Positions 4,963 through 13,338 of a stretch of 14,778 bases of DNA are shown here, one piece after another (the first letter of the stretch is position 1; every line of letters starts with the position of its first letter). The notes under the pieces are model-generated. The model saw only the letters and a list, made by a program, of their open reading frames with translations. It did no database searches and was not told the DNA's origin. The stretch comes from Sphingomonadales bacterium (lineage in GTDB: Bacteria; Pseudomonadota; Alphaproteobacteria; Sphingomonadales; Sphingomonadaceae), in NCBI GenBank assembly GCA_027486275.1, contig JAIXPM010000269.1, forward strand, positions 1-14,778. Direction: 5' to 3'. The position numbers and the translations under genes were made by a program.

Positions 4963-5393
4963 TGGGTATGGGTTCCCCCCGACGCGGCCGCGGCCGCCAG
5001 CCCATGGCGGAAATCAACGTCACACCATTGGTGGACGTGATGCTGGTGCTGCTGATCATCTTCATGGTGACAGCGCCGCTGCTGGTTGCCGGCGTGCCGG
5101 TGGATCTGCCCGACGCCAAGGCGCAAAGCCTGCCGCAAGACCAGTCCCCGATCCAGATCAGCCTGAATGCCGCCGGCGAGCTGTTTGTTGATCGCATGGC
5201 CATCGCGCCGGCTGCCCTGCCCGCCAAGCTCGCCGCGCTGCGTGAAGCCCGCAGTGACGAAGCCCGCGTCTATGTGCGCGCCGATCGCGGCCTGGATTAT
5301 GGCCGGGTGATGCAGGTGGTGGGCGACGTAAACGGCGCCGGCTTCAAGAAAGTGGCGCTGGTTACCGACGGGCAAGCCAAAAACCCGCAATGA
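4962..5393 (+). CDS. tolR: Tol-Pal motor protein TolR (ExbD family)
   Basis: TolR is the single-span rotor partner of TolQ. After a short basic N-terminus (PRRGRGRQP) comes MAEINVTPLVDVMLVLLIIF, in which Asp25 is the membrane-buried aspartate that carries the proton in ExbD/TolR proteins. The periplasmic domain follows from about residue 45 to the end (residue 143), with VYVRADRGLDYGRVMQVVGD typical of the family C-terminal fold. It overlaps tolQ by 1 nt and tolA by 4 nt (ATGA). Length is normal. Confidence 0.97.
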   Translation: MGMGSPRRGRGRQPMAEINVTPLVDVMLVLLIIFMVTAPLLVAGVPVDLPDAKAQSLPQDQSPIQISLNAAGELFVDRMAIAPAALPAKLAALREARSDEARVYVRADRGLDYGRVMQVVGDVNGAGFKKVALVTDGQAKNPQ

Positions 5394-6178
5394 CGCGCAG
5401 CGAACGCCTCAGCATTGCCGGCGCTGCCATCGCACACCTGGTGCTGCTCGCCGCGCTCAGCCTTGCCTGGCAGAACAGCCAGAAGATGCTGGCCGCGCCA
5501 ACTGATGTGGTGCCGGTGGAGATCGTCGACATCTCCGACGCCCCGCGCACGCCGGAACCGCCCAAGCCATCGATGGAAGCTGCCCCGCAGGAAACCGCCG
5601 CTGCTGCCCCCGAAGCCGAAACTGCGCCCGAACCGGAACCGGTGAAGCCTGACGCCGTGCCGCCGCCTGAACCGACCGAACCAACACCGCCAAAGCCCAA
5701 GGCGGCAACACCCACCAAGGCACCGCCCTCTCCGCTCGATACCTCCACCCTGTCCAGCTTGATCGACAAAGCCTTGCCCAAGGCGGTGAAAAAGCCGCTC
5801 GACACCTCGAAACTCGCCAAGGAACTCAACGCCAGCGCCCCCGCGCGCGCCACCGTTGATCCCCGCGCCGCGGCCACCCTCGCCCAGGCCATCCGCGCCC
5901 AGGTCGCTCCGTGCTGGAACCCACCCGTGGGCGGCCGCGACGTGCGCCGCATGACCGTGATCGTGACCGTGAACTACAGCCGCGACGGCCGCGTCATCGG
6001 CATGCCGGCCGCTGGCACCCCCACCGGCATGACCGCCGCCAACGCCGATTACGCCCGCGCCTTCGCCGAAACTGCCCGCCGCGCCGTGCTGCGCTGCCAG
6101 CCGTTGAAGCTGCCGGCGGAGTTGTATGATCTGTGGGGCAGCGTGGAGATCAATTTCGATCCGGAAGAAATGACGTAA
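5390..6178 (+). CDS. tolA: Cell envelope integrity protein TolA (TonB-like)
   Basis: TolA links the TolQR motor to TolB and Pal across the periplasm. The 262-residue protein has an N-terminal membrane anchor (about 7-26) containing the conserved His16 in IAHLVL. A Pro/Glu/Ala/Lys-rich periplasmic stalk covers about 50-115. It contains a PLDTS duplication at 115-119 and 136-140. A C-terminal TolA/TonB-like domain runs from about 155, with Cys175 (APCWNPP) and Cys236 (VLRCQPL) placed to form a disulfide, as in TolA domain III. The stalk is short compared with enterobacterial TolA, as is usual in alphaproteobacteria. It overlaps tolR by 4 nt. Instead of tolB, a gene on the opposite strand follows 15 nt downstream. 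Confidence 0.93.
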   Translation: MTRSERLSIAGAAIAHLVLLAALSLAWQNSQKMLAAPTDVVPVEIVDISDAPRTPEPPKPSMEAAPQETAAAAPEAETAPEPEPVKPDAVPPPEPTEPTPPKPKAATPTKAPPSPLDTSTLSSLIDKALPKAVKKPLDTSKLAKELNASAPARATVDPRAAATLAQAIRAQVAPCWNPPVGGRDVRRMTVIVTVNYSRDGRVIGMPAAGTPTGMTAANADYARAFAETARRAVLRCQPLKLPAELYDLWGSVEINFDPEEMT

Positions 6179-9969: not shown

Positions 9970-10843
9970 CGCCGTTCCGGCGCTCGATGCGCTGGCGGCG
10001 GCCGGGCACGAGATCATCGCCGTCTATACCCGCGCGCCCAAGCCGGCCGGGCGCGGCAAGCAGTTGCAGATGAGCCCGGTCCACGCCCGCGCCGACGCGC
10101 TGGGCATTCCGGTCTTCACCCCCCGCAGCTTCCGTGATCCGGCGGCGGTGGCGCAGTTCCTCGAAATCGCGCAGGGATGCGATGTCGCCGTGGTCGCTGC
10201 CTATGGCCTGATCCTGCCGCGCGCCGTGCTCGACGCACCGCGCTTGGGCTGCCTCAACATCCACGGTTCGCTGCTGCCACGCTGGCGCGGGGCGGCGCCG
10301 ATCCAGCGCGCGGTGCTGGCCGGCGATGCCATCACCGGCGTGACCATCATGCAGATGGAGGAAGGGCTGGATACCGGCCCGATGCTGGCCACGGTGGAGA
10401 CGCCCATCGACGCCAAGACCAGCGGCGATCTGTTTGCCGAACTGGCGCAGTTGGGCGCTGAATTGTTGATCGACGTGCTGGCCAATCCGCGCGCGGCCGT
10501 GCCGCAGCCGGAAGACGGCGTCACGCTCGCCCCGCGCATCGACAAGGCCGAAGCGCATCTCGATACCAGCCTGCCCGCTCTGCAACTGGAACGGCAGGTG
10601 CGCGGCTTCAATCCGGCGCCAGGGGCCTGGATCGATATTGCCGGTGAACGGGTGAAGATCCTTGCCGCCAGCGTCGAGCCCGCCCCGGCCGCGCCCGGCA
10701 TCACCGTCGATGATCGGCTTGGGCTGGGCACGGGCGATGGCGTGTTGAGGCCCACGCTTGTTCAGCGCGCTGGCAAACCGGCCATGCCGGTCAAGGCCCT
10801 GCTCAACGGTTGGCGCGTTCCGGCCGGCTCAACGCTTGCATGA
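9938..10843 (+). CDS. fmt: Methionyl-tRNA formyltransferase Fmt
   Basis: Fmt transfers a formyl group from 10-formyl-tetrahydrofolate to initiator Met-tRNA. The 301-residue protein starts [19 protein letters not shown], which matches the family start. The usual acidic residue of GTP[D/E]FA is Phe10 here. The catalytic triad of the formyltransferase fold is present: Asn107 and His109 in [20 protein letters not shown], and Asp145 in GLDTGPM. The C-terminal OB-like domain runs from about 200. A GTG at 9932 could add two residues, but ATG 9938 fits the family. The start codon is inside a strong terminator hairpin (9928-9969). The stop overlaps the truA ATG by 4 nt (ATGA). Peptide deformylase, a frequent neighbour, is not in the window. 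Confidence 0.96.
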
Positions 10844-11604
10844 CCCGTTTCCGTTTCACCGTGGAATATGATGGCCGGCCCTATTTGGGCTGGCAGCGGC
10901 AGGATCATGGCCCATCGGTGCAGGCCGCCATCGAGGAGGCGATCTTGCAGGTGACGGGCGAGACGGTGGACGTTCATGCGTCGGGCCGTACCGATGCCGG
11001 CGTCCACGCCCGCGCCATGCCCGCCCATGCCGATATCACAAAATCCCTCACACCGTTCCGCCTGATGGAGGCGATCAACGCCCGGTTGAAGCCGCAGCCG
11101 GTGGCCATTATCGATTGCGCGCAAGCCCCCAATTGGCACGCCCGCTTCGATTGCACCGGGCGGCGCTATCACTATCGCATCATCAATCGCCGCGCGCCGC
11201 TCAGCTTTGATGCGGGGCTGGCCTGGCGGGTGCCAACCACGCTGGATGTGCAGGCTATGCACGCGGCAGCCCAGATACTGGTTGGCCAGCATGATTTCAC
11301 CACCTTTCGTTCTGCCAAGTGCCAGGCCAAATCACCGCTGCGCACGCTCGATCGGCTGGAGGTGACGCGCATGGGGGAAGAGGTGCATATCTTCGCCGCG
11401 GCCCGCAGTTTCCTGCATCATCAGGTGCGTTCCATGGTGGGCTGCCTGAAACTGGTGGGGGAAGCCAAGTGGAGCGCCGATGATCTTGCCGCCGCGCTCG
11501 CCGCCCGTGATCGCGATGCGCTGGGACTGAACGCGCCGCCCGATGGCCTGTATTTCATCGGCGCCAGCTACCCCGAACTGTCGGTAGGCTTTACAACTGA
11601 CTAA
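10840..11604 (+). CDS. truA: tRNA pseudouridine(38-40) synthase TruA
   Basis: TruA converts uridines 38-40 in the anticodon arm of many tRNAs to pseudouridine. The 254-residue protein begins [20 protein letters not shown], as in the family, and carries the catalytic Asp52 in the [12 protein letters not shown] motif. [14 protein letters not shown], then [20 protein letters not shown] and [17 protein letters not shown] follow. The ATG overlaps the fmt stop (ATGA), so translation is probably coupled; upstream in-frame starts would lie inside fmt. The fmt-truA order is common in alphaproteobacteria. CTTTA (11589-11593) and TAAAG (11602-11606) form a small inverted repeat across the stop, but there is no convincing terminator. 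Confidence 0.97.
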
Positions 11605-11657
11605 AGTTTCTCGCTTGCCGATTGGGTGGATTCAGCCACTTGCCGGCAATCCACAAA

Positions 11658-11674
11658 TTGGCACGCTAATTGCA
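11658..11674 (+). promoter_or_regulatory. Sigma-54 (RpoN) promoter, near-perfect consensus
   Basis: TTGGCACGCTAATTGCA matches the sigma-54 consensus TGGCACG-N4-TTGCW at every fixed position. The -24 GG (11660-11661) and -12 GC (11672-11673) are separated by exactly 10 nt, as required. It resembles the E. coli pspA promoter as I remember it. Transcription would start near 11685, giving a leader of about 25 nt to the ATG at 11710. Sigma-54 promoters need an enhancer-binding activator. Upstream palindromes TTGCCGGCAA (11640-11649) and CTTTA-N8-TAAAG (11589-11606) are possible but unproven sites. The promoter is outside any gene, between the truA stop and the small membrane-peptide frame. Confidence 0.75.
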
Positions 11675-11709
11675 AGATTGGTGTTGGATCGCCACCGAAG
11701 AAGCACAAC

Positions 11710-11835
11710 ATGCCCCAAGGGCCACATCTTGCACACAGCCAAACTGGCCAGCGCGGCAAGCGTCTCTGGCTCTGGATGGGGCTGTCACTCGGAACCGCCG
11801 GCGGATTGCTGGCAGGCTGGCTGATTTCTGGCTGA
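11710..11835 (+). CDS. Putative 41-aa single-span membrane peptide
   Basis: I do not recognise a family. The frame encodes 41 residues: a polar, basic N-terminus (MPQGPHLAHSQTGQRGKR) followed by one hydrophobic, glycine-rich helix (about 20-39, LWLWMGLSLGTAGGLLAGWL) and a short ISG end. The GxxxG-like spacing suggests helix packing. Arg/Lys before the helix predicts the N-terminus in the cytoplasm. A purine-rich GAAGAAG at 11697-11703 sits 6 nt before the ATG. An ideal sigma-54 promoter 36 nt upstream of the ATG is the main reason to treat it as real. It could be a stress-induced envelope peptide like the small Psp proteins, but sequence identity to them is not claimed. Its stop is 6 nt from the converging alkaline phosphatase stop. 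The frame can be read further upstream, to ATG 11626, but that start precedes the promoter. Confidence 0.5.
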   Translation: MPQGPHLAHSQTGQRGKRLWLWMGLSLGTAGGLLAGWLISG

Positions 11836-11841
11836 GGCCAG

Positions 11842-13338
11842 TTACCGCCAGCCAAGTGCCTCCGCCATGATGTGGAAGATCAGATTCTGCTCCATCACGC
11901 CGCGCACCAGATCGGCGCGCGGGCCTTCGGCAAACAGCGCCACATCCTCACCGCCATGGCTTTCGCTGCCGGTGCCATAGGTCTTGTTGGCGAGATAATT
12001 GGGATCCGTGGGTGGCAGCGTGCGGGACAGGCCGCGGCTCACGAAAGGCCCGTTGGCATAAGTCAGCGTCGTCATCGGCTGGCCGCGATCATCCAGCGCA
12101 TAGCCTTCGGGGCTCAGGCCACCATCGCCTTCGCCACCGCCCTTGGGTGGCTTGATATAGCCCAATATGTCATTCCCACGCTCCGGGTAGCCGGCGATGG
12201 TCAGCACATGGCTGTGATCGGCGGTGACCAGCACCAGCGTCTCATCCAGGTTCACGGACTTCAGCACCTCGGCCACGGTGGCGCTGAACATCTGCGCTTC
12301 CTTCAGCGCCCGATACGGGTTGCTGGCGTGGTGGGCATGATCGATGCGGCCGCCTTCGATCATCAGATAATAGCCCTTGCCACCGCGGGCCGCCTTGCCG
12401 GCGTCCAGCTTGGCCAGCGCAAAGCGCGCCAATTCCGGCAGGCTGGGCTCGGCCTCGTCCTTGCGGTCATGCTCAAAGCTCAGGTGATCGGGCGTAAACA
12501 GGCCTAAAACCGGGCCAGCGTTGCGGCTGTTCAATGCCCGAAGCCCCTTGGAATCAGCAACAAACTGGCCCTGCGGCCAGGCCTTCTGCCAATCTTCCAC
12601 CAGGTTGCGGCCATCATCGCGTTGGCCGCCCTTGCCCAGCGGCAGGAAGCGCGCAAGGCCGCCGCCCAGCACAACGTCCAGCCCGCCCTTGAAACCCACC
12701 AGCTGCGTGGCGAGATCGGCACAACCGGACGCGCGATCGGCGGCAGGATAGGCGCGATCTGCGCCTTCCCAATCGCGGAACGGCACATGGCCATAAACCG
12801 CGGCCGGCGTCGCATGGGTGATGCGGGTGGTGGTAACAACGCCCACGCCCATCCCCTGCCCCTTGGCGATCTCGGCCAGGGTGCGCGGCAGTTTATCCGG
12901 CGTCTTGCAGGCCTCCACGCCCTGATCGGCGCCCATGTTGATGGTGCCAATGCGGGTTTTCACGCCGGTGTTGAAGCTGCTGGCGGTGCCGGCACTGTCC
13001 GGCACCTGGGCATTGGTGTTGTAGGTCTTGATCAGGGCGGTGCTGGCCATCTTGTCCCAGGCCAGGTTGTTCTCCTCGCCGGTGGACGGCGCGCGGCCAT
13101 CGATGGGATGCTGGCCATCAAAGATGCGCGCGGCGGTGAGCGTGGAGATGCCCATCCCGTCACCAACCATCAGGATGACATTCTTCGCCCGCTTCGGCCG
13201 ATTCACCACTTTCAGGCGGGCATCAAGTGCGGCGCGGCCATCGGTCCACCAACTGTCCTTCACCGGCGTATCGAGCACCGGGGCAGCTGAAACAGAGGTG
13301 GCCAGCAGGCCAGCCATAAGCATTGCGCGCATCATCAT
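11842..13338 (-). CDS. Secreted alkaline phosphatase, PhoA family
   Basis: This periplasmic or secreted metalloenzyme hydrolyses phosphomonoesters to release phosphate. The 498-residue precursor has a signal peptide (MRAMLMAGLLATSVSA, cleavage near residue 18). The PhoA-type active site is clear: Asp60 in NVILMVGDGMG, nucleophile Ser115 in VPDSAGTASSFNTGVKT, His175 and Thr177 in THATPAA, Glu328 and Asp333/His337 in IEGGRIDHAHH, Asp374 and His375 in TADHSH, and His461 in SESHGGEDV. Three ATG codons in a row start the frame; AGGGG (13351-13347) lies 8 nt before the first. It follows the oxygenase gene by 39 nt on the same strand and may be cotranscribed with it. No PHO box is visible in that gap. 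The symbol phoA is likely but not assigned. Confidence 0.93.
   Translation of the reverse strand: MMMRAMLMAGLLATSVSAAPVLDTPVKDSWWTDGRAALDARLKVVNRPKRAKNVILMVGDGMGISTLTAARIFDGQHPIDGRAPSTGEENNLAWDKMASTALIKTYNTNAQVPDSAGTASSFNTGVKTRIGTINMGADQGVEACKTPDKLPRTLAEIAKGQGMGVGVVTTTRITHATPAAVYGHVPFRDWEGADRAYPAADRASGCADLATQLVGFKGGLDVVLGGGLARFLPLGKGGQRDDGRNLVEDWQKAWPQGQFVADSKGLRALNSRNAGPVLGLFTPDHLSFEHDRKDEAEPSLPELARFALAKLDAGKAARGGKGYYLMIEGGRIDHAHHASNPYRALKEAQMFSATVAEVLKSVNLDETLVLVTADHSHVLTIAGYPERGNDILGYIKPPKGGGEGDGGLSPEGYALDDRGQPMTTLTYANGPFVSRGLSRTLPPTDPNYLANKTYGTGSESHGGEDVALFAEGPRADLVRGVMEQNLIFHIMAEALGWR

Follow-up and report, generated by a model that had tools for sequence, protein, structure and literature searches.

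What does a sigma-54 promoter drive in the short gap behind truA, a housekeeping gene, and which activator would switch it on? The window analysed here is a stretch of 14,778 nucleotides from a Sphingomonadales bacterium (contig JAIXPM010000269.1). The tRNA pseudouridine(38-40) synthase gene truA occupies positions 10840-11604 on the + strand (173.5 bits to TIGR00071, cut-off 142.85), and an intergenic gap of 237 nt (11605-11841) separates it from an alkaline phosphatase family gene on the - strand (11842-13338, 355.6 bits to PF00245). An initial annotation had placed a sigma-54 site in this gap, pointing at a frame of 41 codons (11710-11835); re-reading of the window returned the same sequence and coordinates for the site, the same frame and the same gap length. 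Elsewhere in the window, an amidohydrolase gene (PF07969, 6194-7897, - strand) lies directly upstream of tolB on the opposite strand and apparently splits the tol-pal cluster, in which the gene at 5390-6178 matched no family and is called tolA by its position only. The ribosomal protein S16 gene (1537-2091) carries an alanine/glutamate-rich tail of about 100 residues past the S16 domain.

The site, TGGCACGCTAATTGCA at 11659-11674 on the + strand, is the single exact match to TGGCACG-N4-TTGCW in the whole window. It has the -24 GG and -12 GC elements (motif 2) without mismatch, and the predicted transcription start lies near 11685. Given the base composition, a gap of 237 nt read on two strands should hold 5.9e-5 exact matches, and the entire window 0.0037, which bears out the earlier statement that a chance match in the gap is unlikely. 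When up to 2 mismatches were allowed, the pattern had 3 matches in the window, the two others with 2 mismatches each, against a mean of 4.55 in 200 shuffles. Because three matches are no more than chance would give, the case is carried by the exactness of the match and by its conservation, not by the count. Chance is further excluded since 21 of the 49 relatives examined carry the site behind truA and since a second motif accompanies it at a published spacing. Judged from these sequence comparisons, the sigma-54 promoter at 11659-11674 is almost certainly real. We found no sigma-70-like promoter at 11500-11960. A terminator-like pattern at 11808-11821 falls inside the small ORF and was not accepted as real, and a plasmid origin was dropped as the region 11560-11870 had no plasmid match.

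A composite promoter of this type has been described for proteobacterial PEP-CTERM genes by Haft et al. 2006 (PMC1569441). Their description of the box consists of a 17-nt motif 1 ending in TTTACA, a spacer (mean 62.8, S.D. 10.6, range 32-92) and the sigma-54 motif 2, and they predict that PrsR activates it; a few additional sites precede other genes and are said never to lie within coding regions. The window holds a corresponding predicted activator motif, TGTCGGTAGGCTTTACA at 11579-11595 on the + strand. It is an imperfect palindrome of the form TGTNNN-N5-TTTACA, here TGTCGG-N5-TTTACA, and is located 63 nt upstream of the sigma-54 site, within the published range; its assignment is by comparison with the published description in words. 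In some boxes (L185, L186) motif 1 is TGTAAAATAATTTTACA, a perfect palindrome with the arms TGTAAA-N5-TTTACA, which suggests that PrsR binds as a symmetric dimer.

Motif 1 lies in the last truA codons, the stop codon being at 11602-11604. TTTACA is found 53-75 nt before TGGC in 17 of the 21 promoter-bearing relatives, at 63 nt in 14 of them; the hexamer is CTTACA in G023, G005 and G014 and, by eye, ATTACA in G027. The truA frame was followed in the window itself and in 18 of the 21 relatives (all except G017, G019 and G027). The stop follows motif 1 in the window and in 14 relatives, so that the motif is coding there; in G018 and G013 the stop interrupts the motif, and in G024 and G020 it precedes it. 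Where motif 1 is coding, the closing codon pair is TTT-ACA (the window and 11 relatives) or CTT-ACA (G023, G005 and G014), and the codons ahead of this pair vary among relatives. In 16 window genes, some of them present in part, TTT accounts for 28.5% of the codons for Phe and ACA for 7.6% of those for Thr. What is conserved at the end of truA seems to be a DNA motif rather than a peptide.

In order to follow the promoter in relatives, we located truA in 59 of 60 genomes and examined its downstream region in 49 of these, looking for a site of no more than 2 mismatches that has a short ORF behind it, one containing a strongly hydrophobic segment. Both were found together in 21 of the 49, namely 20 of 24 genomes of the same genus and G027, which belongs to another genus of the same family. 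Fifteen of the 20 same-genus sites have no mismatch and five have one; the truA-linked site of G027 has two. Among the other same-genus genomes, G021 shows a degenerate site with 3 mismatches next to a similar ORF, and G004, G006 and G007 have no such site or ORF behind truA. The check on close relatives proposed in the initial annotation thus found that, of 24 same-genus genomes with the flanking truA, 20 retain the GG and GC elements. G007 also lacks a PrsR above cut-off. G004 and G006 do carry PrsR yet lack promoter and ORF, so the small gene is dispensable there. Sites without such an ORF in G029 (1 mismatch) and G031 (2 mismatches) are probably due to chance. Matches seen in a single genome are often fortuitous, and the losses in three of 24 same-genus genomes, with decay in a fourth, could be taken as the mark of a chance match or of a functionless relic. 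Such a reading is scarcely credible in view of the 5.9e-5 matches expected per gap, the retention of the site in 20 of 24 genomes, the conservation of both elements across species, and a composite score of 47.6 where random sequence reached at most 14.9 (see below).

The small ORF at 11710-11835 (+ strand) encodes a protein of 41 aa, MPQGPHLAHSQTGQRGKRLWLWMGLSLGTAGGLLAGWLISG, in which basic residues are followed by one glycine-rich hydrophobic helix. Its truA-linked counterparts are 34-66 aa long. We aligned 20 of the 22 small proteins (alignment A1, without G001 and G022 and with the starts of G023 and G005 shortened). In window numbering, G24, G28 and G32 are invariant and W20 and L25 nearly so, in members as low as 24% identical to the first sequence; basic residues ahead of the helix were seen by eye in most members. 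The dN/dS ratio is 0.14-0.41 over 16 pairs, and variable sites fall 3, 2 and 6 on the three codon positions in four close genomes, where the closest pairs differ by few changes. These values point to purifying selection on the encoded protein. They also bear on the idea that the promoter makes a regulatory RNA, either a small RNA or an antisense to the alkaline phosphatase gene, from a unit whose ORF is not translated. The unit is indeed short, and on the opposite strand the convergent phosphatase gene comes to its end at 11842; yet neither the substitution pattern nor the maintenance of a hydrophobic helix with three invariant glycines at identities down to 24% would be expected of an untranslated frame, and we regard a regulatory RNA as improbable.

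The small protein matched no family in NCBIfam or Pfam; weak matches to 8 Pfam families, none of them involving more than 2 of the 20 members (best E 0.0026), were put down to chance. When 5.8 billion proteins were searched, 25 relatives of the small protein came up among the 7988 candidates listed. None of these 25 has a precomputed Pfam domain or a name beyond 'hypothetical protein'; the source of one, P0008, is named as Sandarakinorhabdus or Polymorphobacter glacialis, a hint at that group. Another, P0002, has a called start upstream of the promoter, and if the promoter is right its start is the ATG equivalent to 11710. The earlier expectation that a standard annotation would miss the unit therefore holds in part: the relatives are unnamed or merely 'hypothetical protein', but some have been called as genes, P0002 from a start ahead of the promoter. 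The protein does not belong to the PEP-CTERM sorted proteins (NF035944 / TIGR02595). By eye, the 20 aligned members contain no PEP motif, so the protein is not itself PEP-CTERM cargo. Our literature searches found no report joining PEP-CTERM with a small membrane protein, and none joining Sandarakinorhabdus with PEP-CTERM.

We then asked how closely the composite box follows PrsR and PEP-CTERM genes. A box profile was trained on 59 boxes not located behind truA. Sixty had been picked by an exact TTTACA...TGGCAY...TTGC, one duplicate being dropped, so that these positions are 100% in the 60 boxes by construction of the selection. The profile ranks the box at 11579-11674 first in the window with a score of 47.6 (training median 45.1). 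On either strand, the next independent match in the window scores 1.3; random windows, of which 60 were read on one strand each, gave 14.9 at most. The composite pattern TTTACA-N45-75-TGGCAY-N5-TTGC gave 153 matches in 39 of the 60 relatives; its reversed control matched once. Of the 153, 145 fall in the 45 genomes that have PrsR above cut-off and 8 in the 15 others. Counted by genome, 34 of the 45 with PrsR have a composite match and 11 have none; five of the 15 without PrsR above cut-off have matches, two (G038 and G056) holding partial PrsR-like matches. In the nearest genome, G001, four of the eight exact sigma-54 sites precede PEPxxWA-CTERM proteins (NF035944, 44-51 bits, cut-off 35), and all four have TTTACA upstream. 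The fifth is the site of the small ORF, and the other three (L071, L075 and L076) are not of this kind. A simple pattern recognized a PEP-CTERM ending in 16 of 30 loci from the composite search, and L103 was added as a seventeenth by eye; four of these 30 are themselves truA loci (L121, L122, L126 and L130).

The distance between the two motifs is not spread evenly. We drew the spacer histogram from 150 of the 153 composite matches, over the range 45-75 nt and with the truA-linked boxes included; one place in G001 enters it twice, TTTACA being present twice there. The spacers pile up at 51-53 (42 matches), 61-65 (72) and 72-75 (27), with 9 elsewhere (n=150), the third pile being cut off because the search range stopped at 75. 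The piles stand near 52, 63 and 74, about 11 bp from one to the next, as expected if PrsR and polymerase must share one face of the helix. In the window, a putative IHF-like element, ATTCAGCCACTTG, lies between the two motifs at 11630-11642 (+ strand). It has 1 mismatch to WATCARNNNNTTR, which we take to be the IHF consensus, and ends 16 nt before TGGC. With at most 1 mismatch and on the forward strand, 17 of 22 truA-linked promoters have an element of this kind, where shuffles gave 0.46 on average and 3 at most; these counts are not independent because four of the 22 promoters are nearly identical. The other boxes were scored on either strand, using 59 boxes of which one (spacer 48) falls outside the three spacer classes: the element is present in 21/27, 13/18 and 7/13 by class, against shuffle means of 2.5, 1.9 and 1.7 and maxima of 7, 6 and 5. 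It lies on the reverse strand 17-18 nt before TGGC in the 52-class (17 matches) and on the forward strand 15-17 nt before TGGC in the 63-class (11 matches), and its positions are scattered in the 74-class. Outside this family an IHF-like element is weakly indicated, only 4 of 14 loci from other families having one. The published account of the box (PMC1569441) makes no mention of phasing or IHF in the parts that describe its motifs. Literature searched by title for PEP-CTERM with integration host factor or with upstream activation/sigma54 gave nothing on phasing or IHF among the matches listed.

The gene content for rpoN, PrsR and IHF was read from the nearest genome, G001, in which 41% of the window's sampled 31-mers recur and the 401 bases 11500-11900 have a 98% identical counterpart; for the window's own genome, rpoN and PrsR are inferred from it. 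G001 contains rpoN (PF04552, 205.1 bits), a gene that the initial annotation had named as a check. Its presence and the conservation of the GG and GC elements in 20 of 24 same-genus genomes support the view that a sigma-54 promoter marks a small regulated unit here. For IHF, the beta subunit is above cut-off and the alpha subunit just below (116.1 vs 120.25). Five AAA+ enhancer-binding proteins of G001 score strongly, at 180-237 bits to PF00158. The genome codes for PrsR (TIGR02915, 674.9 bits, cut-off 502.6), and a PrsK-like kinase adjoins prsR, upstream of it, as two ORFs on the - strand (L215, 4751-5797 and 6008-7015) that match the two parts of TIGR02916, one with 293.4 bits and the other with 124.7, neither at the cut-off of 300. 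It also codes for PspF (477.6 bits, cut-off 443.55), for NtrX (742.3 bits, cut-off 600) and for two more enhancer-binding proteins, L005 and L004, which are below every NCBIfam cut-off.

With these four present, one of them might activate the promoter, TTTACA being incidental. This is very unlikely, as the upstream motif and the phased spacing are common to PEP-CTERM-type genes, and behind truA the motif persists also in genomes whose truA stop falls inside it or before it. PrsR, rather than PspF, is the likely activator. PspF had been suggested earlier as an example of the enhancer-binding protein to look for; it is present in G001, but the evidence favours PrsR. Control by PspF as in the phage shock response, and generic stress control, were ranked low: the promoter is not adjacent to psp genes, its neighbours being truA and the alkaline phosphatase gene. 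The stress or nutrient responses that the initial annotation had named as usual for sigma-54 promoters give way to an expected role in the control of surface proteins or exopolysaccharide. An exosortase (TIGR03109, PF09721) was sought in the whole G001 assembly without a match, while its kin G003 and G012 have one; this reflects either a loss or an assembly gap. A role of the small protein as a direct partner of exosortase is weakened by the lack of one in G001.

The region 11579-11674 is thus very probably a PrsR-dependent sigma-54 promoter of the PEP-CTERM-gene type, driving a single-gene unit for a predicted bitopic inner-membrane protein of 41 aa. We propose that PrsR, phosphorylated upon activation by the PrsK kinase, would bind the near-palindrome TGTCGG-N5-TTTACA at 11579-11595. 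A bend at about 11630-11642, probably made by IHF, would bring it over the sigma-54 holoenzyme at 11659-11674, where ATP hydrolysis would open the complex and transcription would begin near 11685. The small protein would then be co-produced whenever PEP-CTERM cargo genes are on. Its basic N-terminus would probably remain inside, with the glycine-rich helix across the membrane, and it would most likely work together with, or act upon, the machinery of PEP-CTERM/exosortase or of exopolysaccharide export. What the sequence itself shows is the pair of motifs with their spacing and conservation, the regulon context and selection on the coding frame; binding by PrsR and IHF, transcription, and the topology and function of the protein are inferred from it.

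Co-regulation and the membrane helix lead us to suggest tentatively, at somewhat less than an even chance, that the small protein is an accessory or regulatory factor in PEP-CTERM export or exopolysaccharide assembly. That a PEP-CTERM-type box stands before a membrane protein this small, conserved but without a name, suggests that a partner of the surface-protein system has been overlooked. PrsR is predicted to control mainly genes for cargo proteins; a conserved micro-protein that shares this switch without being cargo points to a component of the machinery that is still missing, or to a regulator of that machinery. A broader proposal, which we also hold as possible and slightly short of evenly balanced, has two parts. 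The truA-linked glycine-rich inner-membrane micro-protein, co-induced with cargo by PrsR, would be a dedicated, undescribed PEP-CTERM/exopolysaccharide component in this clade. In addition, the PrsR promoters of the clade would share an undescribed architecture, in which the spacings of the activator sites (near 52, 63 and 74) differ by about a helical turn and an IHF-type bend has a strand and position of its own in each of the first two classes; the activator site of the present box is set in the final codons of a housekeeping gene. The IHF-like element, together with the helical phasing, offers a testable looping mechanism for the PrsR box, as well as a sharper search pattern for the whole PrsR regulon in other genomes.

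Sigma-54 promoters have been linked to membrane proteins in the PspF-dependent phage shock promoters. The small-ORF promoter resembles these in combining a sigma-54 promoter with a membrane protein, in a lineage whose nearest genome has a PspF gene; it differs in its neighbours, truA and alkaline phosphatase, and in its PEP-CTERM-type upstream motif. A second comparison is offered by the pepA promoter of Aquincola tertiaricarbonis, which is RpoN1-dependent and has mapped -24/-12 elements TGGCAC / CTGCTT ahead of a PEP-CTERM gene, the previously predicted enhancer sequence also being noted upstream (PMC9850573). That promoter drives a PEP-CTERM protein and its RpoN dependence was measured, whereas the small-ORF promoter is predicted here from sequence; the same work describes PEP-CTERM proteins as important in flocs and aggregates. 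The closest likeness is to the PrsR-sigma-54 box as described in PMC1569441. The locus shares with it the 17-nt motif ending in TTTACA, a spacer near 63, the sigma-54 motif, an apparent single-gene unit and, in G001, a genome with PrsR and a PrsK-like kinase, the latter split and below cut-off; it differs in its target, which here is a single-helix protein of 41 aa that has no PEP-CTERM signal.
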